Below, in pieces: positions 25,800 through 36,500 of a DNA stretch of 54,824 nt. The DNA is from Collinsella sp. AM18-10 (GTDB lineage: Bacteria; Actinomycetota; Coriobacteriia; Coriobacteriales; Coriobacteriaceae). Location of the stretch: NCBI RefSeq assembly GCF_003471585.1, contig NZ_QRJO01000012.1:1-54824 (forward strand). Reading direction: 5' to 3'. Position numbers and translations under genes: made by a program. The notes beneath the pieces are model-generated. The model worked only from the letters and a program-made list of their open reading frames with translations. It was not told the origin of the DNA and ran no database searches. Numbering within the stretch: position 1 is the stretch's first letter; each line of letters starts with the position of its first letter.

Positions 25800-27104
25800 A
25801 TGGCAGAAATGGAGCTTGCGACCCTCATTTGTGGCGAAATCGCAGGCACTCTCCGGCAAGACGAGCATGGACTCTGCAGCTTTGTATACGCCCCAACCTA
25901 TCGCGGGGCACCGCTATCGCTAACAATGCCGCTTTCCAATCGCACGTATGGCCATAACATCGTCCGCCCGTTCCTATTTGGCCTTTTGCCCGACAGTCAA
26001 GAGCAGCGTCGCGCCATTGCCACCGAGCATGATGTTGCATCTAACAACCCCGTCGCCCTCTTGTGCCATATCGGTCTTGACTGCGCGGGGGCCGTTCAGT
26101 TTTGTCGAGCCGATCAATTAGACGCCGTCCGTGGCAGGGTCTCCGCATACCGCCCGCTTACCAATTCTCAAATCGCTCACAAGCTTAAAGCAATTCGCGA
26201 TGACGAAAGAGAGACATGGATGGGCTCCAACGAAAGCTGGTCCCTGGGCGGCAACCAAGGCAAATTTGCACTAGCTTGGCATGATGGCCAATGGTACGAA
26301 TGTCTAGGGTCATCCCCCACTACCCATATCTTCAAAAATGGTGTCGTCGGGTTCAAACATCAGGCCTTAAACGAATTCGTCTGCATGAAAACGGCTCGGC
26401 GTGTTGGCATTCCAACTGCCAACGTCTCCTATTGCACATTTGAAGACGAAGCCGCACTCGTCGTTGAACGATACGACAGAATGGTCAATAACAGCGGAAG
26501 CATCGAAAGGCTGCATCAGGAGGACTTTTGCCAGGCGCTCGGTGTATTGCCAAGCCAGAAATACACCGCCGACGGAGGACCGACTACACGAGACATCCAA
26601 GAACGACTGATTAACACAGTCCCCCACCACATGAATCTTGTGCTTTTTACCTATATGTTGTTCTATAACGCCATTATCGGAGCGCCTGACGCACACGCTA
26701 AAAACTACTCGCTCATCCTAGGCAAAGGCACAAACGCGGCACTCGCACCCATGTACGATGTCGCGTCGGGTTTGGCGTATGAGCGCATGCGCCGCCGGGC
26801 GCGCCTTGCCATGAGCGTTGGCGGCGAAAATCGAGTGGGGCGCATCGGTCCAGGCGCTATCCGCCGATACCACGGTATGGGCGACCCCGCGCTGGAGGCG
26901 GCGCTCACCGATGCCGGGCTATCCGAGAAGTTTTGCTTTGCGACCATGATGGACCTCGCCTACGAGGTGCCCATTTGCATGGAAGAGATCATGGACGAAT
27001 ACGCCGACCTGCCCGGCATGGCGGACCTGCGCGAGCACATGCTCGGCCCCGTCCGCGAAAACTGCCAGCGCACCCTCGACCTCATCAAGGCGGATATGGG
27101 CTAG
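25800..27104 (+). CDS. hipA: HipA-like serine/threonine kinase toxin
   Basis: Toxin kinase of 434 aa. The N-terminal HipA domain (1-105) contains NRTYGHNIVRPFLFGLLPD. The P-loop-like segment is SWSLGGNQGKFAL, whose usual autophosphorylated Ser position is occupied by the SLGG region. The kinase core has ALVVERYDR (the ATP-binding Lys equivalent is not obvious), catalytic Asp in GAPDAHAKNYSL and metal-binding Asp in PMYDVASGLAY. Family members phosphorylate aminoacyl-tRNA synthetases and cause growth arrest. The protein appears intact and lies directly after its antitoxin. Confidence 0.88.
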   Translation: MAEMELATLICGEIAGTLRQDEHGLCSFVYAPTYRGAPLSLTMPLSNRTYGHNIVRPFLFGLLPDSQEQRRAIATEHDVASNNPVALLCHIGLDCAGAVQFCRADQLDAVRGRVSAYRPLTNSQIAHKLKAIRDDERETWMGSNESWSLGGNQGKFALAWHDGQWYECLGSSPTTHIFKNGVVGFKHQALNEFVCMKTARRVGIPTANVSYCTFEDEAALVVERYDRMVNNSGSIERLHQEDFCQALGVLPSQKYTADGGPTTRDIQERLINTVPHHMNLVLFTYMLFYNAIIGAPDAHAKNYSLILGKGTNAALAPMYDVASGLAYERMRRRARLAMSVGGENRVGRIGPGAIRRYHGMGDPALEAALTDAGLSEKFCFATMMDLAYEVPICMEEIMDEYADLPGMADLREHMLGPVRENCQRTLDLIKADMG

Positions 27105-28835: not shown

Positions 28836-29357
28836 CTAGACGGGCCGTGCCGAAGGGGCGTTGGACCCTTCAACCAACCTCAACGCCTGTTGAACATTAA
28901 TGCATACACCATTGGTATGTTTAATAAGATTCTTGTCCTCCGTCACAACGTAATCGGCATCAATGCGATTGGCGACGCCCAGCATCAGGTCGTCCTCAAA
29001 GTCGTTGTGATGATACTTGAACACAAACGAATCAAAGACCTCGTCTGCACCGACCGGCGCGATGAGGGCGAGCTCGCGCATCTGCCGAACGCATGCCCAG
29101 GCCGTTTCGTCCGCCGCCGCAATGGCGTTATCGCTCAGTGAGCCAGTCTTTCTTCGGCACTCCTGCTTGATTGCCGCCGAGACAAGATATGAAACGTCTT
29201 TGACCGAAAGCGACGAGGCAAACAGGGCAATCCGCTCCGAGGCGTCGGCAATCTCGATCAGATGGACGACATTTGCCGTACGGTCGGACCTGCCAGAAAA
29301 ATAATCCATCCATACGTTGGTATCGATTAACAGCTTGAGGACGCCTTCTGTGCTCAT
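28836..29357 (-). CDS. PIN-domain toxin
   Basis: Predicted Mg2+-dependent ribonuclease toxin of 173 aa. KLLIDTNVWMDYFSGR near the N-terminus carries the first catalytic Asp. Later acidic residues lie in NDFEDDLMLGVANRIDADYVVTEDKNLI, the usual DxxD and D positions of a PIN fold. The ATG at 29357 overlaps the stop of the upstream antitoxin gene (ATGA). The target RNA is unknown. The N-terminal frame could extend to 29369, but the coupled start is more likely. Confidence 0.85.
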   Translation of the reverse strand: MSTEGVLKLLIDTNVWMDYFSGRSDRTANVVHLIEIADASERIALFASSLSVKDVSYLVSAAIKQECRRKTGSLSDNAIAAADETAWACVRQMRELALIAPVGADEVFDSFVFKYHHNDFEDDLMLGVANRIDADYVVTEDKNLIKHTNGVCINVQQALRLVEGSNAPSARPV

Positions 29358-29713
29358 AGTTCCACCCACTCGGGATAGCGCTCCGCCATGGCCTCCTCAT
29401 AGAGGTCGTCATAGTCTCCCGAGAACTCAGGGATGGGGATGCCGTATTTGAGGCACGAATCGCGAACGATATGGCTGCCTTGCGCGGCCCTTGACTCCAT
29501 GCGCTGGGGCTCCACTCCGTCAGAAACCGGAGCCGCCGCGTCTCCCTTCGAGGGCATGCGTCCGTTAACGACCAGATACTCCCAAAGTGTCCGAACGGCT
29601 TGTGACGGCGTCATGCCAATATGCGCCAGAACGGCATCTCCGGCTTCTTTGAGCTGGCGATCTATGCGCACGTTCATCTGAATAGATTTTTTATCGAGCA
29701 ATTCGGCTTCCAT
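29354..29713 (-). CDS. RelB/DinJ-type ribbon-helix-helix antitoxin
   Basis: Antitoxin of 119 aa. The N-terminal KKSIQMNVRIDRQLKEAGDAVL followed by GMTPSQAVRTLWEYLV is the ribbon-helix-helix DNA-binding and dimerisation part of the RelB/DinJ family. The C-terminal tail (about 70-119) is acidic and probably wraps the toxin. Such antitoxins usually pair with RelE/YafQ toxins, but here the partner is a PIN protein. An inverted repeat upstream is a likely binding site. Confidence 0.85.
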   Translation of the reverse strand: MEAELLDKKSIQMNVRIDRQLKEAGDAVLAHIGMTPSQAVRTLWEYLVVNGRMPSKGDAAAPVSDGVEPQRMESRAAQGSHIVRDSCLKYGIPIPEFSGDYDDLYEEAMAERYPEWVEL

Positions 29714-29729
29714 GCCTCATCCTTCAGGT

Positions 29730-29760
29730 TGCTATACATCATCCTGGACTTAGTATAGCA
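29730..29760. promoter_or_regulatory. candidate operator/promoter of the RelB-PIN pair
   Basis: TGCTATAC (29730-29737) and GTATAGCA (29753-29760) form an 8-bp inverted repeat with a 15-base spacer, 17 bases before the antitoxin start. The TATACT inside the right arm may be the -10 box on the minus strand, so binding would block transcription. Confidence 0.6.
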
Positions 29761-29781
29761 TCCATAAGAGCGCAGCAATGC

Positions 29782-29820
29782 CTTACCGGGAGGTGTAGTG
29801 GCTTACATTTTCCCGGTAAG
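29782..29820. repeat. 10-bp inverted repeat at the edge of the RiPP cluster
   Basis: CTTACCGGGA (29782-29791) and TCCCGGTAAG (29811-29820) are perfect inverted copies with a 19-base spacer. There is no T-run on either side. It lies in the gap between the toxin-antitoxin pair and the ABC exporter. Confidence 0.6.
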
Positions 29821-29886
29821 CACCAACCTCGAACAGCTTTCCACCATGGCAGAAATTAAGACTCAAATGGGCTAACCTTCCGGCGT

Positions 29887-31518
29887 CTACAGCTCAATCA
29901 CTTCGTCGCAAGCCTCAAGCAACTCGGGATCATGCGAAACAACAACCACTATATGATCCTCTTTCTTCTGTTGCAGAATATCAATGAACGCTGACCTACT
30001 CGCTCCGTCAAGCGCCGACGTCGGTTCATCGAATAACATGACGGGTGAGTCCTTAAGCAATACACGAATAATCGCAATCTTCTGCTTCTCACCACCCGAT
30101 ATATTATGGTTTTGCTCGTCCAGCACCCCATCAAGACCATTGGGAAGTGTTGAGACCAGTTTGGTCAGACCAAACTGGTCTACAAGTCGCCCGACTTCAA
30201 GAATTGGACAATTATCGCCCGCGAGTAGCGTCAGATTCTCTCTGAGTGTTCCGTTAACGATATCAGGTTCTTGCTCGGCAATACCAACGACATACGAGCG
30301 TAGATTTATAGAATCAATCTGGCTCAAATCAACCTCGTCATAAGCAATAGTCCCAACGCAATCATCGGGATATAGACCAGCTATGCCATCGAGAAGCGTG
30401 CTTTTCCCGCTTCCGTTTGCGCCCGACACGCCGTATAAGACTCCTCGATTAAGCGAGATGAGCTCTGGATAATCTATGATTCGATCGGTATCAGGGCGAC
30501 AAATCGACAGGCCCTTGCACACAAGTGAAACAGGAGAACCAATGCGGACAGAACCGTTCGCCTCTTCATCCATTGCCCAAAGGCGCTTAAGGCGTTGGGC
30601 GCTCACCTTGCTCGCCTGGTAGCTTTTGCCCCAAGAAAGCAAGTTCACCAGAGCAGAATTGGCGCTCGAATAATAGCTCAATGCCGTCAGCAGAAAACCA
30701 ACCGGCATTTTACCTGCGACAATCTCACAGCCTCCAATCGCGAGCAAACAGAACTGCGCAAAGGAAAAAATCAACTGATTCGCAAGTTCGAACCGTGATC
30801 CGGCTTTTTGGTTAGCCAATATAGCTGGATAAAGACCATCGAAAGCCTTCTGCAGCCTCAAGGAATAGAAATCAAATAATGAATGGCGACGAAGAAAGGA
30901 GACGCTCTCCAGCTGGCTCTGGAGAGTCCCATAGAAAGCAGCGGTCTTTTCCTGAAACTCAAAGCCTCGATTGAACAGCAGCCCGCTAAACAATCGATAA
31001 ACTACTGCCCCCGTAACGATGCAGGCTAGACAGGCAATCGCCATCGCAATGTTTATATTCATCAACATAATCAAGGAACAGATAATCGTTGCAACACCGC
31101 CAATGATATTTGACGCCGATGTTATTCCGAATATTATGAGGTCGTTTGAATCGTGATTGATTTGCTGATTATAATAGCCCGCATCAAATCCGATGAAAAA
31201 CTTCCGGGGCAAACGCTTGACGTGTTCAAGTGTGTCAGCGTTAAGTTGATATCCCGCATGCGCTTGAAGGTCGACATAGATTAGGGAAGTCCAATAGGCC
31301 AACACCGACCCCACAATGGCGACCACGCCAATCGCGAAAATACATAAGACTAGCGTCCGCAAACTAATACCGAGGACATTTTTTGCCGCCAGCACATTTA
31401 CAGTCAGTCCCAACAGATATGGTTCAGCAAGGCTGCACAGCTGAGACAAGACATCGAGAAGCAGATAGACATAAAGCCTTGGCTTATGGAGGAGATATAT
31501 CTTCCAAAATCTAAACAT
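29887..31518 (-). CDS. ABC exporter (fused permease-ATPase), probable RiPP exporter
   Basis: A 543-aa type IV ABC half-transporter. Residues about 1-310 contain six hydrophobic segments (for example RTLVLCIFAIGVVAIVGSVL and IIGGVATIICSLIMLMNINI). The nucleotide-binding domain has Walker A SGANGSGKSTLL, signature ISGGEKQK and Walker B PVMLFDEPTSALD, with VVVSHD as the switch His. There is no C39 peptidase domain at the N-terminus, so it cannot remove a leader peptide. The ATG at 31518 overlaps the radical SAM gene by 8 bases. It is the last gene of the cluster, and context suggests it exports the modified peptide. Confidence 0.85.
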   Translation of the reverse strand: MFRFWKIYLLHKPRLYVYLLLDVLSQLCSLAEPYLLGLTVNVLAAKNVLGISLRTLVLCIFAIGVVAIVGSVLAYWTSLIYVDLQAHAGYQLNADTLEHVKRLPRKFFIGFDAGYYNQQINHDSNDLIIFGITSASNIIGGVATIICSLIMLMNINIAMAIACLACIVTGAVVYRLFSGLLFNRGFEFQEKTAAFYGTLQSQLESVSFLRRHSLFDFYSLRLQKAFDGLYPAILANQKAGSRFELANQLIFSFAQFCLLAIGGCEIVAGKMPVGFLLTALSYYSSANSALVNLLSWGKSYQASKVSAQRLKRLWAMDEEANGSVRIGSPVSLVCKGLSICRPDTDRIIDYPELISLNRGVLYGVSGANGSGKSTLLDGIAGLYPDDCVGTIAYDEVDLSQIDSINLRSYVVGIAEQEPDIVNGTLRENLTLLAGDNCPILEVGRLVDQFGLTKLVSTLPNGLDGVLDEQNHNISGGEKQKIAIIRVLLKDSPVMLFDEPTSALDGASRSAFIDILQQKKEDHIVVVVSHDPELLEACDEVIEL

Positions 31519-32797
31519 CGTGATTTGCCTCATGCGAATACTGATAATTACAAGCCAACCGCATTCTCTGCCTGGCATTGAATTTAACGCTCGCGCATTT
31601 TCTCTGGCCCTCCATCGCGGCGTGGGGACATCCGCCCATACAAGCCGGAAACATTACACACTCGCCACATACTGGGTCGTTTGGTAAATACTCCATCCAT
31701 TTCAAATAGTTCGAATTAGCTTTCACACCTTCTCGAACATTTCCAACGGCGCACTCGCCCTTGCCAACCTCATCCCAACATTTAAAAAGTCTACCAAGCG
31801 GATCGATGACAAACGAATTAAGGGAAACCGCACAGCAGACGCCTGGTTCATACGGCGTAAACGGAATAACGTTGAATCCGCGCTCGCTAGCTTTATCCAT
31901 AAAGAACGTTTCAACTTGAGAGAATCCACGCTGAGAAAAACAATGAATGTCATTTGAGCAAGTATCGTTAACATTGTCGACCGCAGCAAGATAAATCGCG
32001 ACTTTACCGCGAAGCCCTTTAGCGTCAAGCTCGTCAATCAACGCATCGACCTCTTTGCTATTGGACTCATCGACATTCACGCGAATGGTAATCTGAAGAA
32101 CATCGGCACATGAGATTATATTGTCGATAATGGCATCATATGTCGGACGACCGTCGGCCGGGACCCTCCGCGTATCATGATCCCTCTTTGAGCCATCAAT
32201 AGTGATTTGAACCGAACCGATCTGACAATCAGCAAGCTTCTGAGCAATTTCTCGCGTCAGGAGATATCCGTTCGTTACCATTCCGGCAGAATAAGTAGCG
32301 CCTGGCCTAATCGCCCCTCTCAGTTCTTTTGTCAGTCGCTCGATCATGTCCACACAGAGTAGGGGTTCGCCTCCATACCAGTCAACGTGAAGATCGTTGA
32401 TCCCGGGATAGCCGGAACGCACGAATTCTGCGATATCCGTCATTGTCTCTTCTGACATAGTGGGGTGCGAGCAGCCCTTTTCATAGCAGTAGGGACACCT
32501 AAAATTGCATGCCAGCGTTGGAGCAATCGTCAGTCCTAAATAGTCATTTGCAAACCTTGCCGACAAGCTCTCAAGCATCAACGTTCGCCGCTCGTCAACA
32601 TCGTCATCTACCAACATGCCACCCAACTTAAGGGTCTCTTCGAAATCACCATCCAAGGCGGCGGCACCCTTGCGATATAAATTCAGCTCATTCGTGTGCG
32701 CAGCGTCAAGGTCGAGAACGCCACCAGATTGGGTATTGTAGATAGTGATACCGTTCACATCATTCTCTTCAATAACGTTAAATTCAGACTCTTTCAT
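31511..32797 (-). CDS. radical SAM/SPASM peptide maturase
   Basis: A 428-aa enzyme. The radical SAM 4Fe-4S cluster ligands are C97, C101 and C104 in ACNFRCPYCYEKG. GGEPL, the SAM-binding glycine motif, follows. The C-terminal SPASM domain carries the auxiliary-cluster pattern: CAVSLNSFVIDPLGRLFKC, then CGECVMFPACMGGC, then a final Cys in QRKC. The first 90 residues precede the barrel and may include a peptide-recognition (RRE-like) fold. SPASM enzymes of this type make thioether or C-C crosslinks in RiPP peptides. The Cys-rich peptide encoded upstream is the evident substrate. It starts directly after the permease gene stop. Confidence 0.88.
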   Translation of the reverse strand: MKESEFNVIEENDVNGITIYNTQSGGVLDLDAAHTNELNLYRKGAAALDGDFEETLKLGGMLVDDDVDERRTLMLESLSARFANDYLGLTIAPTLACNFRCPYCYEKGCSHPTMSEETMTDIAEFVRSGYPGINDLHVDWYGGEPLLCVDMIERLTKELRGAIRPGATYSAGMVTNGYLLTREIAQKLADCQIGSVQITIDGSKRDHDTRRVPADGRPTYDAIIDNIISCADVLQITIRVNVDESNSKEVDALIDELDAKGLRGKVAIYLAAVDNVNDTCSNDIHCFSQRGFSQVETFFMDKASERGFNVIPFTPYEPGVCCAVSLNSFVIDPLGRLFKCWDEVGKGECAVGNVREGVKANSNYLKWMEYLPNDPVCGECVMFPACMGGCPHAAMEGQRKCASVKFNARQRMRLACNYQYSHEANHDV

Positions 32798-33607
32798 TTA
32801 TATGCTCCGTTTTCTGATAGCACCCTTGATAGCCCAACAAAGTCCGAGGATGACAATGGGAACGACTGTTGCCAGCGCTACAAATAGCAACGTCCCCGGC
32901 ACGATGAATTGAATTGGTCGCGGGGACGCAAGGGTCGCCAACCATGTCAAGTGCAGTGGCATATTTGGATTCCCGTACCCCAAATAAAGCAGCAGGATGA
33001 TGAACGATAGAACAAACGCGCCATTTCCAAAGAGTGAGATGGCCAGGACGAGCAGCAGGCATAACGTTGTGCAAATCAAGGCAGCAAGAGACAGTCGAAG
33101 AAGAAACTCTCCGATCATATCCATCGTCATTCCTATGCCACTCGCGCTTTGGACCGCACCAACGAGTATCGAAAAGAGAACAAAACCACCGACAAGCGTG
33201 ACAATCGAGACAAGAGTCCTTGCAACCAACAACTGTACTGTTTTCATTCCCCTTGCATAGGAAACAAGCCATTGAGATCCCGTTATCGGAGTTCGAAACG
33301 CATAGCCGATGACGAGAACAGCAACAATAGGAAAGAACAGAGAATGGGCAAGCGGTGCCACAGCGGAAAGGTAGCGAGCTCCATCTTTAACGAGGTCTCC
33401 GGGAATTCCCACAAAACCATATTGTGGGTTTGGAAAGAAGCCCATAACACCGTCGCCAAGCCAATCGCTCGTTCCGTAGGCTCTCCATGGTTCATAAGAC
33501 ACAGAATAAAGCAATGCGAGCACGAAACCTGCCGCAATCAGCAGAAGAGGCGCTTTGCTCTTCATAACTCGATAGGCTTCAGCCTTAATCATATCTTCGC
33601 AGCGCAT
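32798..33607 (-). CDS. ABC-2 type membrane protein
   Basis: A 269-aa protein with six predicted transmembrane helices: one near residue 20 (APLLLIAAGFVLALLYSV), one near 95 and the rest spread over the C-terminal two thirds, with a large extracellular loop after the first. It resembles the permease subunits of ABC-2 transporters such as those giving self-immunity to lantibiotics. The ATG at 33607 has a very strong GAGGAGGGGG before it; the longer frame has no site. It is two bases from the second permease gene. Confidence 0.72.
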   Translation of the reverse strand: MRCEDMIKAEAYRVMKSKAPLLLIAAGFVLALLYSVSYEPWRAYGTSDWLGDGVMGFFPNPQYGFVGIPGDLVKDGARYLSAVAPLAHSLFFPIVAVLVIGYAFRTPITGSQWLVSYARGMKTVQLLVARTLVSIVTLVGGFVLFSILVGAVQSASGIGMTMDMIGEFLLRLSLAALICTTLCLLLVLAISLFGNGAFVLSFIILLLYLGYGNPNMPLHLTWLATLASPRPIQFIVPGTLLFVALATVVPIVILGLCWAIKGAIRKRSI

Positions 33608-33609
33608 TT

Positions 33610-34413
33610 CTACCCCCTCCTCGCTTTGATTCCCATGACCCCGAGCTGCAACGAAACAACGGTGCAAATAACAGAGAAAAGAATGATCTGATTAATGGCT
33701 AGGCCTTGAAAGCACAGATTTCCAAGATGGCGTAAGTATGGTCCGACTGAGAGCCACCAGGGAATTTGCGTCGATGCGTGATTGGAAAAGACCACCAGCG
33801 TATATTCATCGGAGGCGAGCAGCGTCCCGACCAACACCAACATAATGCTAAGCGGTGCATTTCTAAGTAAATAGAAAACTGCCATCGACTGAGCTACTAA
33901 TGCAGCCAAAATAGCATCAATCAAAAGCAACACGGGCAGGTATCTATCAAGAAACACCCGCCCATCCACATAGCAGCCAAGCGGAGATTTGAAGAGAGTG
34001 AATCCCGAAAACAGGTTGAACGCTGTTGAAGTTGCAATCGTCAGAACAAGCCACTTTGCGACAACGGCCTTTGCTACACCCGTCCCTTTTGCATACGTCA
34101 CTTCAGAAGACCTGCTTTGATAATCCATGGCGCAGGAAATAACAATGCATCCGGCTAGAACGAAAAACCACTCGTAGGTCATGAATAGTGCCGTCCGAAC
34201 CGCCGAACCAGCTGGGTCAGTCTTGTCGAGGATGTTTGCAAAGAAACCAATCTGTTTGCCGACTCCCCCTAAATCAGATGTTCCATAAGTCCCATACATA
34301 TTTGGATTACAGACATCTTTAACAATCCAAATTCCCCAGATCAACAACACGAAAAAGGCTGGATTTCTGAGCAACCGACGGGCTTCGCATCTAATCAGTC
34401 GCAGAAGTTGCAT
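33610..34413 (-). CDS. ABC-2 type membrane protein
   Basis: A 267-aa membrane protein with the same plan as its neighbour: an N-terminal amphipathic start MQLLRLIRCEARRLLRNPAF, a helix FVLLIWGIWIV, a large outside loop (residues about 33-75) and five more helices. The two permeases share loop features such as GTYGTSDLGG and GTSDWLGD after helix 1, suggesting they arose by duplication and form a heterodimer. Its start lies 23 bases inside the end of the ATPase gene, so the three are coupled. Confidence 0.72.
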   Translation of the reverse strand: MQLLRLIRCEARRLLRNPAFFVLLIWGIWIVKDVCNPNMYGTYGTSDLGGVGKQIGFFANILDKTDPAGSAVRTALFMTYEWFFVLAGCIVISCAMDYQSRSSEVTYAKGTGVAKAVVAKWLVLTIATSTAFNLFSGFTLFKSPLGCYVDGRVFLDRYLPVLLLIDAILAALVAQSMAVFYLLRNAPLSIMLVLVGTLLASDEYTLVVFSNHASTQIPWWLSVGPYLRHLGNLCFQGLAINQIILFSVICTVVSLQLGVMGIKARRG

Positions 34414-35119
34414 TATCTGCCTCCCCGATCAAATCCAAAAACCGCTTTTCCAGACTTCGGTCTTTGTAGGAGTTTTCTTCCTTAACGAGAAGTCTGCCTC
34501 GATGGAGAAAAGCAAAAGATGTCGCAACTTTCTCCAATTCATCTAGGTTATGGCTTGAAATGAGCACCGTTTTATCCCGTTTGTCCTTCAACGACAGCAG
34601 GAGATCACGCACCTCAATCACACCCACTGGATCGAGCCCGTTTATGGGTTCATCCATGATGAGTAGTTGCGGGTTGCCCAGAAGAGCCGTTCCGATATCC
34701 AGGCGACGCTTCATGCCGAGCGAGTATTGTTTTACCGATGCATCCGCCGCATTTTCTAGGCCAACGGCAGCGAGCACTCGATTAACTTCACTTTTCGGCA
34801 GCCCCCACTCGATACAGCGTGAGATCAAGTTTTCTCGACCGGTTAAGTTCAAGAATGCCCCACAGCCGTCGGGGACGAATCCGATATTTCTGCGTGCTCT
34901 TGCCAGACCTGTTCTCCCAGACTCGCCGAAAAAACTGATTGAGCCTTTCGTTGCTTTAAGCAAGCCAAGAAGAATATCAATCAACGTACTCTTCCCCGCG
35001 CCGTTCTCCCCAACGAGAGCGCACACTTCGCCCTCATCTATATCAAATGAAACATCAGACAACGCCCAGTTTTTGCCGTAGCGCTTTGATAGATCCTTGA
35101 TTGAAATCGCATTACCCAT
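34391..35119 (-). CDS. ABC transporter ATPase of the cluster
   Basis: A 242-aa ATPase. Walker A is GENGAGKSTL, the Q-loop region NIGFVPDGCGAF, the signature YSLGMKRRL (the LSGGQ variant typical of ABC-2 and antibiotic-export ATPases), Walker B LLIMDEPINGLDP, and the switch His SSHNLDELE. Together with the two permeases it forms a separate transporter. Such LanFEG/BcrAB-like units usually protect the producer from its own bacteriocin, so immunity is the favoured role. A terminator lies between it and the precursor gene, so its expression should be lower. Confidence 0.85.
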   Translation of the reverse strand: MGNAISIKDLSKRYGKNWALSDVSFDIDEGEVCALVGENGAGKSTLIDILLGLLKATKGSISFFGESGRTGLARARRNIGFVPDGCGAFLNLTGRENLISRCIEWGLPKSEVNRVLAAVGLENAADASVKQYSLGMKRRLDIGTALLGNPQLLIMDEPINGLDPVGVIEVRDLLLSLKDKRDKTVLISSHNLDELEKVATSFAFLHRGRLLVKEENSYKDRSLEKRFLDLIGEADNATSATD

Positions 35120-35131
35120 GTCTCATGAACC

Positions 35132-35181
35132 TCATTAAAAAGGCAGCGCGGTCGACGGATGGCAGTTATCGACCACGCTGC
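35132..35181 (-). terminator. terminator/attenuator between precursor peptide and transporter genes
   Basis: Stem GCAGCG-GGTCGA (35143-35155 with 35169-35181, one mismatch) and a 13-base loop, followed on the minus strand by CTTTTTAAT. It starts about 40 bases after the precursor stop, so most transcripts would end here. Confidence 0.8.
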
Positions 35182-35221
35182 TTACCCTCTGCTGTCTTAA
35201 CCAGCATTAACGTTCACGTTG

Positions 35222-35332
35222 CTAGAAATGAACATATACGCCAAAACAGCTACAGCGCGAACACGGGTGGTAATTGCGGCAGCCACCACCGCCACCCTGC
35301 ACGTTGCTACACGGATCGATTACCCAGTTCAT
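35222..35332 (-). CDS. Cys-rich RiPP precursor peptide
   Basis: A 36-residue peptide that opens MNWVIDPCSNVQ, continues with five glycines and then Cys (GGGGGC, residues 13-18), and ends HPCSRCSCFGVYVHF. Its five Cys are at 8, 18, 24, 27 and 29. The AAAGGAGG ribosome site is near ideal. It has its own promoter and terminator and precedes a radical SAM/SPASM gene, ABC exporter and immunity-like transporter. It lacks an obvious leader peptide or double-glycine cleavage site: the first Cys is only seven residues from the start. I do not recognise its family. Its likely product is a thioether-crosslinked (sactipeptide or ranthipeptide-like) secreted peptide. Confidence 0.8.
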   Translation of the reverse strand: MNWVIDPCSNVQGGGGGCRNYHPCSRCSCFGVYVHF

Positions 35333-35371
35333 AATTACCTCCTTTCGATTTATCGTCTGTTTTAATACTCC

Positions 35372-35403
35372 GTTATCGTATATCGATAACCTTATGATTT
35401 CAA
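35372..35403 (-). promoter_or_regulatory. promoter with overlapping operator for the precursor peptide
   Basis: On the minus strand, TTGAAA (35398-35403), a 17-base spacer and TACGAT (35375-35380). The -10 box sits inside a perfect 7-bp inverted repeat GTTATCG-TATAT-CGATAAC (35372-35390). A repressor binding there would block transcription, and the adjacent XRE gene is the obvious candidate. Confidence 0.7.
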
Positions 35404-35423
35404 GAACTATTTTCAAATAAATT

Positions 35424-35457
35424 AAGGCTCCTACCGATCGTTTGCGGTAGGAGCCTT
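35424..35457 (-). terminator. terminator of the XRE/DUF2975 pair
   Basis: A perfect 13-bp stem AAGGCTCCTACCG (35424-35436) with its complement (35445-35457), followed on the minus strand by a TAATTTATTT stretch. It separates the regulator genes from the precursor promoter. Confidence 0.75.
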
Positions 35458-35492
35458 GCATGCATACGTGTTTGTCTTCTTATTCTGTTTTG

Positions 35493-35819
35493 TTATTCCT
35501 TAGAAAGATCTACTACGTAAACCTCTGTGGGCAATATCTCGGAAGGGTCGGGATTGCGTCTTTGCAAAATCTTATTCCGCGCGCGCGCGATGGTAAGTTC
35601 CTCAAGTTCTATTTCACTCACGCGACGGATCAAATCTCCCGGCTGACAATCCAACTCAACACAGATATCGAGCAATGTCTTCAAGCGTATGGCCTTAATT
35701 TTTGCATTACGGATTTTAGAAATGTTAGCTGGCGTATGCCCAGTCGCTCTTATTAGATCGGCATTTGTTTTCCCGGTCTTGAGCAAAAGTGTCTCAACCT
35801 CAATAATGAGATAATCCAT
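35493..35819 (-). CDS. YozG-like XRE-family transcriptional regulator
   Basis: A 108-aa regulator. Residues 1-65 form a short XRE helix-turn-helix (TNADLIRATGHTPANISKIRNAKIKAIRLKTL) ending DICVELDCQPGDLI, the hallmark of the YozG family. About 40 more residues, acidic and charged, follow; typical YozG proteins stop near 70 aa. The ATG at 35819 has AGGTG ahead. It follows the DUF2975 gene by 10 bases; YozG and DUF2975 genes are a common pair. It may repress the precursor promoter through the palindrome overlapping its -10 box. Confidence 0.85.
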   Translation of the reverse strand: MDYLIIEVETLLLKTGKTNADLIRATGHTPANISKIRNAKIKAIRLKTLLDICVELDCQPGDLIRRVSEIELEELTIARARNKILQRRNPDPSEILPTEVYVVDLSKE

Positions 35820-35829
35820 GGTCAATCAC

Positions 35830-36399
35830 CTAGACCAAATCATCGGACTGGGACTGCAAAAGCGCCCCATAGCGCCAGAAGATCGACAAAGCGAAAGCAA
35901 CCATCATTGCAATGATGGATCCCACATCCAAAGTGATGCCCGAGTCACCAATCTGAAGGAGAGCGGAATTCATACGACAGCTCAACATACAATTACCCAT
36001 CATTATTTTTAAATCGCTGCCAATCTGTAGAGAGCCCATCACGGCATTGATTGCAAATAGGCAAGCAATAACGGTAATCATCCGTGCATGTCGAATAGTA
36101 AAAGGCGATTGACGACGGGCGACATCGAAGCTGATGCTTAACAATGTGAACTCCCCTGCAAGGAGCAAAACCGCCCATAGCGCCAAGTTTGGGAGCGCGA
36201 TGCTGCCGCCCTTACCAAGCTCAACGACCCCCTCGATTACCACTGCGCCGTTCAAAATACTTTGGCATGCAACAACAAATGCCGAACCAAAGACGGCGAT
36301 GGTAGCGATGGCTATAAGTACCAGCACGGCACAAAGAACCATTCCGATTTTTCTCATGTTATCGAACGACATCTCAATTCTTTGAGCGCTATTCGCCAT
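35830..36399 (-). CDS. DUF2975 membrane protein (YoaS-like)
   Basis: A 189-aa membrane protein with four hydrophobic segments: IGMVLCAVLVLIAIATIAVF, the segment around LALWAVLLLAGEFTLLSI, MITVIACLFAINAVMGSL, and VGSIIAMMVAFALSIFW. This layout, and the adjacent YozG-type regulator, fit the DUF2975 family, whose function is unknown. The ATG at 36399 with AAAGGAG is chosen over the frame start at 36435. It may act as a sensor or as an immunity protein for the cluster; neither is shown. Confidence 0.75.
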   Translation of the reverse strand: MANSAQRIEMSFDNMRKIGMVLCAVLVLIAIATIAVFGSAFVVACQSILNGAVVIEGVVELGKGGSIALPNLALWAVLLLAGEFTLLSISFDVARRQSPFTIRHARMITVIACLFAINAVMGSLQIGSDLKIMMGNCMLSCRMNSALLQIGDSGITLDVGSIIAMMVAFALSIFWRYGALLQSQSDDLV

Positions 36400-36469
36400 A
36401 GTAACTCCTTTTGCCATCCAGCAGAACTTTTTCAATTATTTTATCGTTACCGGAAACTCTTCTCTACAA

Positions 36470-36500
36470 GAAAAGGGGCGCACCTCCATCGGAAACGCCC
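36470..36500 (-). terminator. terminator of clpC
   Basis: Stem of GGGGCG...CGCCCC type (36474-36486 with 36490-36500, imperfect), followed on the minus strand by CTTTTCTT. It lies 29 bases past the clpC stop. Confidence 0.65.

Follow-up and report, generated by a model that had tools for sequence, protein, structure and literature searches.

A probable radical SAM peptide cluster beside clpC in Collinsella sp. AM18-10 and a predicted immunity transporter retained without its peptide at sister sites

Several described systems resemble, each in part, an eight-gene cluster at positions 29,887-36,399 (minus strand) of a 54,824-nucleotide stretch of DNA (the window) from Collinsella sp. AM18-10, a member of a common human gut genus. 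The thioether synthase CteB of thermocellin (SCIFF, a ranthipeptide) combines a RiPP recognition element (RRE; RiPP, ribosomally synthesized and post-translationally modified peptide) with a radical S-adenosylmethionine (SAM) core and a SPASM domain. The predicted fold of the window maturase matched CteB along its whole length, and in both systems a Cys-rich precursor adjoins the maturase. However, the two maturases are only about 19% identical (TIGR03974, 70 bits vs. 425) and, unlike thermocellin, the window precursor has 36 residues, five Cys, no Thr, and a very short leader. PapB, the maturase of freyrasin, represents another SPASM thioether maturase family (NF047865) that the window enzyme resembled below its cut-off (133 bits; cut-off 340), but CX3D/E, the motif linked by PapB (PMC9413430), is absent from the window precursor. 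The best NCBIfam models for the maturase, TIGR04463 (283 bits; cut-off 525) and Clo7bot TIGR04334 (263 bits; cut-off 600), stayed well below their cut-offs. As in the LanFEG lantibiotic immunity transporters, one ATPase and two permeases adjoin the peptide gene. TIGR03740, the ATPase model of that group, was the best model for the window ATP-binding cassette (ABC) ATPase (192 bits; cut-off 310); neither permease matched any NCBIfam model. Taken as a whole, the locus is likely a bacteriocin-type radical SAM RiPP cluster, with genes to make, modify, and export a peptide and to protect its producer as laid out below; these acquired genes probably make, export, and resist a small cross-linked, Cys-rich peptide.

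The precursor (MNWVIDPCSNVQGGGGGCRNYHPCSRCSCFGVYVHF) has Cys at positions 8, 18, 24, 27, and 29, a single Asp, which precedes the first Cys, and no Glu. It is encoded, behind a strong Shine-Dalgarno sequence, in the 373-nt gap between the genes for a helix-turn-helix (HTH) regulator and the ATPase. In 5000 dinucleotide shuffles of this gap, any open reading frame (ORF) of 25-80 codons with at least five Cys arose in 121 cases and was accompanied by a Shine-Dalgarno sequence in three; such an ORF with Trp at position 3 never occurred (0/5000). The native gap has all three features. When 395 genomes of the order were searched for the maturase (E ≤ 1e-60), 13 loci were recovered, of which 11 encoded a related Cys-bearing short peptide within the operon or next to it, four of the 11 with only two Cys (short versions in genomes G179, G239, G023, and G319). 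Since relatives accompany the maturase at these loci, the 36-residue, five-Cys peptide proposed in a first-pass annotation of the window is real. No precursor was recognized at the G468 maturase locus, nor in G367, whose contig starts just upstream of the maturase and where none follows the HTH gene either.

The precursor gene of G001 was identical to that of the window. Tandem precursors beginning MDWINEP.. and MEWITEP.. were found in G018 and G031, a single type (MSWIVKPSYVDPGGGC..) in G009 and G006, and a pair beginning MDWIQPT.. and MEYIQKP.. in G019 and G012. The short two-Cys peptides and the window peptide have C-x4-P-C-[KS]-R in common (..CRNYHPCSR.. vs. ..CHVMSPCKR..). Trp was missing from the G023 and G319 peptides and from one member of each G019/G012 pair; the M-x-W-[IV] start is thus a tendency rather than a rule. 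The precursor had been described as unrecognized, and this held against family models: the window peptide matched nothing in Pfam, and no NCBIfam model recognized any of nine precursors scanned, apart from one weak match of a sister precursor to positions 1-31 of 34 of the Clo7bot peptide model TIGR04333 (E 0.7). The 31-bit cut-off of that model was reached by none of the nine and by nothing in 43 Collinsella genomes; sub-threshold matches in those genomes were rejected as noise because 12 of 14 control genomes also matched below the cut-off. Searches of a protein database with precursor profiles returned 38 and 28 short proteins (E ≤ 10), two overlapping sets in which versions of a small number of peptides predominate. 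Two database forms of the window peptide (P0152 vs. P0150) differed in a glycine run (GGGGG vs. GGGSGG) and in V/I near the end. The second tandem precursor of G018 (locus L024) ends at its 3′ side in a perfect, repeated palindrome (GTGCACTATCCGC..GCGGATAGTGCAC), from about which point P0130, P0131, P0134, P0145, and other database variants diverge C-terminally; this may be either genuine variation or an assembly artefact. P0122, a 39-residue peptide with 89 member sequences, resembles a recombinant of the two tandem G018-type precursors.

The maturase carries the radical SAM motif CX3CX2C (C97/C101/C104) and SPASM Cys residues C321, C340, C377, C380, C386, C390, and C401. None of these residues varied across 47 aligned sequences (the window protein, four loci, and 42 of 120 database relatives listed), in agreement with the earlier statement that all cluster Cys are present. 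In the predicted model, residues 7-81 form three strands and three helices, an RRE-like arrangement to which 5wgg aligned from residue 4. As far as the sequence can tell, a thioether RiPP of the sactipeptide class (Cys linked to an alpha carbon) or of the ranthipeptide class (Cys linked to a beta or gamma carbon) would be compatible with this enzyme. A database relative of the maturase, P0029, matches the radical SAM domain twice in tandem. A scan of genome contigs with one protein returned two loci, one in Collinsella aerofaciens and one in Empedobacter; no relative was found in a scan of viral contigs. Pfam and NCBIfam confirmed the family of the ABC exporter, and a domain-model search gave no match to a C39 peptidase domain. 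Its start is probably at 31,518 rather than 31,578, because diverged homologues at L026, L027, and L040 align from residue 21, but those at L024 and L025 from residue 14.

Evidence on the transporter came from a sister site, reached via an HTH search in 58 genomes and subsequently via a promoter pattern in 43 genomes. The full gene set was present there in G009 and G006, while G033 (a 72% complete genome) had precursor, ATPase, and permeases without maturase and exporter. Eight genomes lacked the precursor (L111 in G010; L113-L116 in G004, G019, G001, and G035; L136-L138 in G003, G012, and G034) and kept regulator, promoter, ATPase, and permeases, of which only the ATPase start is seen in G034, where the contig ends within that gene and leaves downstream genes outside it. 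The border of the precursor loss was common to seven of the eight and different in G001; G033 and seven of the eight lacked maturase and exporter, with identical borders. In seven of these loci the ATPase frame continues directly from the remaining precursor start codon (MSGFAI..), and in G001 the ATPase's own start lies at the precursor ribosome site. Thus, the control elements of the lost peptide (promoter, operator, and ribosome site) would now drive the transporter.

Nei-Gojobori dN/dS ratios (own script) were calculated for five of the eight orphan genomes (10 pairs; G003, G012, and G034 were left out). The ATPase gave 0.13, the permeases 0.28 and 0.27, the HTH regulator 0.04, and the membrane protein 0.26, similar to the 0.13, 0.30 and 0.28, 0.06, and 0.20 obtained at precursor-bearing loci (three pairs). 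Judged by these ratios, the orphan genes are under purifying selection in the five genomes tested, and if the identical borders reflect one event, the values describe evolution after the loss. The ATPase frame of G012 is shortened. No close maturase was found in the genomes of G010, G004, G035, G003, and G034 (best matches E 3.6e-10 or weaker); G019 and G012 carry a 38-39% identical maturase elsewhere and G001 a window-type cluster. That the transporter is kept where the peptide has gone supports the self-immunity proposed in the first-pass annotation and an antibacterial product; related species thus seem to retain the resistance part alone, which points to the peptide being a weapon. Immunity to bacteriocins by way of ABC transporters is already known (PMC10598978). 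In the second clusters of G019 and G012 (L028, L029), two long Cys-rich precursors directly precede the 38-39% identical maturase; approximately 25 kb separate these clusters from the operon with orphan immunity, and that of L028 has a GC content of 44%.

A signalling role has been proposed for some clostridial ranthipeptides, and the modified peptide could similarly be a signal, with the ATPase and permeases acting as sensor or importer instead of immunity. A dedicated HTH regulator and membrane partner adjoin the peptide gene and are both kept in orphan loci, as such a role would have it. This explanation is nevertheless unlikely, as the transporter is complete in G010, G004, G035, and G003 and present at least in its first part in G034 although none of these genomes has a close maturase, and the window permease diverges with peptide type; an "eavesdropping" reading of the orphan transporter loci is possible. 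Exchanged roles, in which the MsbA-like ABC protein provides immunity or general export and the ATPase with two permeases is the true exporter, were judged very improbable. Both are ABC transporters whose roles were assigned by analogy, but the MsbA-like and maturase genes share an 8-nt overlap and are missing together at orphan loci, and P0033, a database relative, fuses a maturase of the same family to an ABC ATPase domain.

Self-immunity against an exported, cross-linked peptide remained the preferred interpretation. Weighing against it are the absence of any codon-level sign of constraint in the precursor pairs compared, a tie in Z between anSME and CteB in the fold comparison of the predicted maturase model, and the failure to find any orphan immunity that matches the window type. 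The first of these would fit a chance frame, the maturase acting on another substrate; the precursor genes of G009 and G006 differ by two silent and five changing codons. Yet several diverged loci have, in the same slot, a peptide gene with a similar M-x-W-[IV] start, a Shine-Dalgarno sequence, and a Cys-rich body, and a chance ORF, which we regard as scarcely credible, was rejected on the shuffle control. A non-peptide SPASM family for the maturase was rejected, despite the tie in Z, on family scores and the CteB-like fold. Neither outcome named in the first-pass annotation as fatal to its proposal, a small ORF unconserved beside the maturase elsewhere or a maturase grouping outside the peptide maturases, was observed.

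Comparison of neighbouring Collinsella genomes supported the claim that the region was acquired by transfer. The 3′ end of clpC was present in all 43 genomes, and 30 clpC loci were examined, of which 22 had the same neighbourhood and eight a different neighbour. Among the 22 comparable loci, clpC was directly followed by an M20 peptidase gene in 15, five had a RelB/PIN pair without the cluster, and one had a PIN remnant; the cluster was present only in G001. Because 21 of 22 comparable sites were unoccupied, the cluster is interpreted as an acquired insert next to clpC. Inspection by eye revealed neither direct repeats nor att-like ends. A RelB/PIN-type toxin-antitoxin pair (window 28836-29713) adjoins the cluster and is variably present at the clpC-peptidase junction in Collinsella. 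Of the genomes compared, G001 was closest to the window (42% of sampled words). In 250-base bins, DNA identity to G001 was 97.6-100% over 29,250-34,000, 91-97% within 34,000-35,000, and 96-99% over 35,000-36,500; it was 91-95% to the right of the cluster (88% in the last, partial bin) and, to the left, 88-98% up to 26,750 and 64-72% beyond. This profile fits recent exchange by recombination, though no single clean event.

The minus-strand gene order is membrane protein, HTH regulator, precursor, ABC ATPase, permease 1, permease 2, maturase, and ABC exporter (Table 1), with intergenic spacings of 10, 160, 102, -23, 2, 0, and -8 nt, so that the genes from ATPase to exporter abut or overlap. GC content was 47.7%, against 59.8% in the remaining window. 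Tight packing on one strand and AT-richness, as first described, were thus evident, and the ABC exporter, the ATPase (Pfam and NCBIfam), and the YozG-type regulator (Pfam HTH_26) were correctly named. The two presumed ABC-2 permeases are both multi-span membrane proteins by hydropathy; an ABC-2 match, the sole Pfam match of either, was obtained for permease 1 alone and was weak (ABC2_membrane_3, E 0.028). The supposed DUF2975 protein was not confirmed, as it matched neither Pfam nor NCBIfam. Elsewhere in the window, a HipA-type gene (HipA_C, Couple_hipA) occupies 25800-27104 on the plus strand.

Table 1. Features of the acquired segment in the window.
Feature	Position	Strand	Remarks
Whole acquired segment	29766..36468	-	Borders approximate: just past RelB/PIN promoter to just before clpC terminator
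Membrane protein	35830..36399	-	189 aa, ~5 hydrophobic spans; paired with HTH gene; no family match
HTH_26 (YozG-like) regulator	35493..35819	-	68-76% identity at four other loci
Terminator-like hairpin with T-rich tail	35424..35457	-	Regulator/precursor gap; z -5.5
Promoter-like site	35375..35403	-	TTGAAA-17-TACGAT, upstream of precursor
Inverted repeat	35372..35390	.	GTTATCG-N5-CGATAAC, overlying -10 region; candidate operator of HTH regulator
Shine-Dalgarno of precursor	35338..35345	-	AAAGGAGG
Precursor peptide	35222..35332	-	ATG at 35,332, stop ends at 35,222
Stable hairpin with T run	35143..35181	-	3′ of precursor; probable partial terminator; z -3.6
ABC ATPase	34391..35119	-	Predicted LanF-like immunity transporter
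Permease 1	33610..34413	-	Predicted immunity transporter
Permease 2	32798..33607	-	Predicted immunity transporter
Radical SAM/SPASM peptide maturase	31511..32797	-	Predicted N-terminal RRE-like fold
ABC exporter	29887..31518	-	Membrane domain and nucleotide-binding domain, no C39 peptidase match; start 8 nt inside maturase gene

A promoter pattern built from the sites of the window, G009, G006, and G018 occurred at 13 places in 12 of the 43 Collinsella genomes and nowhere in a reversed control. All 13 places lie just downstream of an HTH gene, three (G003, G012, and G034) being newly found by the scan. Conversely, 10 of 13 HTH places with more than 60% identity carry the pattern, which is missing in G031 (one base off), G023, and G025 (none); the G367 locus also has none. 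In G023 (L110) and G025 (L117), where no precursor was recognized either, a permease-2-like gene lies upstream of the HTH regulator and its membrane partner; these loci may be older remnants or may be arranged differently. By eye, hairpins of different sequence occupy the same positions in sister loci (z -3.9 for the one folded, in L026).

The segment was acquired between clpC and the RelB/PIN pair, as unoccupied sites in relatives show. In the proposed mechanism, the HTH regulator would control the promoter whose -10 is overlaid by the candidate operator, and the 36-residue peptide would be produced from it in excess because the hairpin after the precursor would limit read-through. The maturase RRE would bind the short N-terminal M-x-W-[IV]-x-x-P segment, and the enzyme, using radical SAM chemistry and two auxiliary clusters, would crosslink the side chains of Cys residues, with thioethers as the likeliest linkage. 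The ABC exporter, judging from family and gene overlap, would secrete the product, and the ATPase with two permeases may clear the peptide from the producer membrane in the manner of LanFEG, consistent with the sister-type orphan operons. This division between exporter and protector draws on gene order, on family membership, on the joint absence of genes, and on a single database fusion (P0033).

Full-text literature searches on Collinsella with ranthipeptide, sactipeptide, or RiPP and radical SAM returned, by title, mostly genome, metagenome, and isolate surveys or other topics; no paper was found on TIGR04463 or on Clo7bot with radical SAM, and the matches listed for OhkG were unrelated by title. 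A more far-reaching reading, doubtful at present, is an arms race within the genus Collinsella, fought with hypervariable radical-SAM peptides that share little beyond the M-x-W-[IV]-x-x-P leader, whose crosslink falls under none of the known motifs (CX3D/E, Cys-Thr, and NxxC), and against which the cut-down operon of non-producers is an inducible "eavesdropping" defence. What is of interest here is a new subfamily and a deletion series found in nature rather than a new principle. Maturase and peptide form a compact pair that lends itself to testing and lacks the known acceptor motifs, and the series at one chromosomal site (full set; precursor with immunity but neither maturase nor exporter; immunity only) constitutes a natural experiment on weapon versus immunity.
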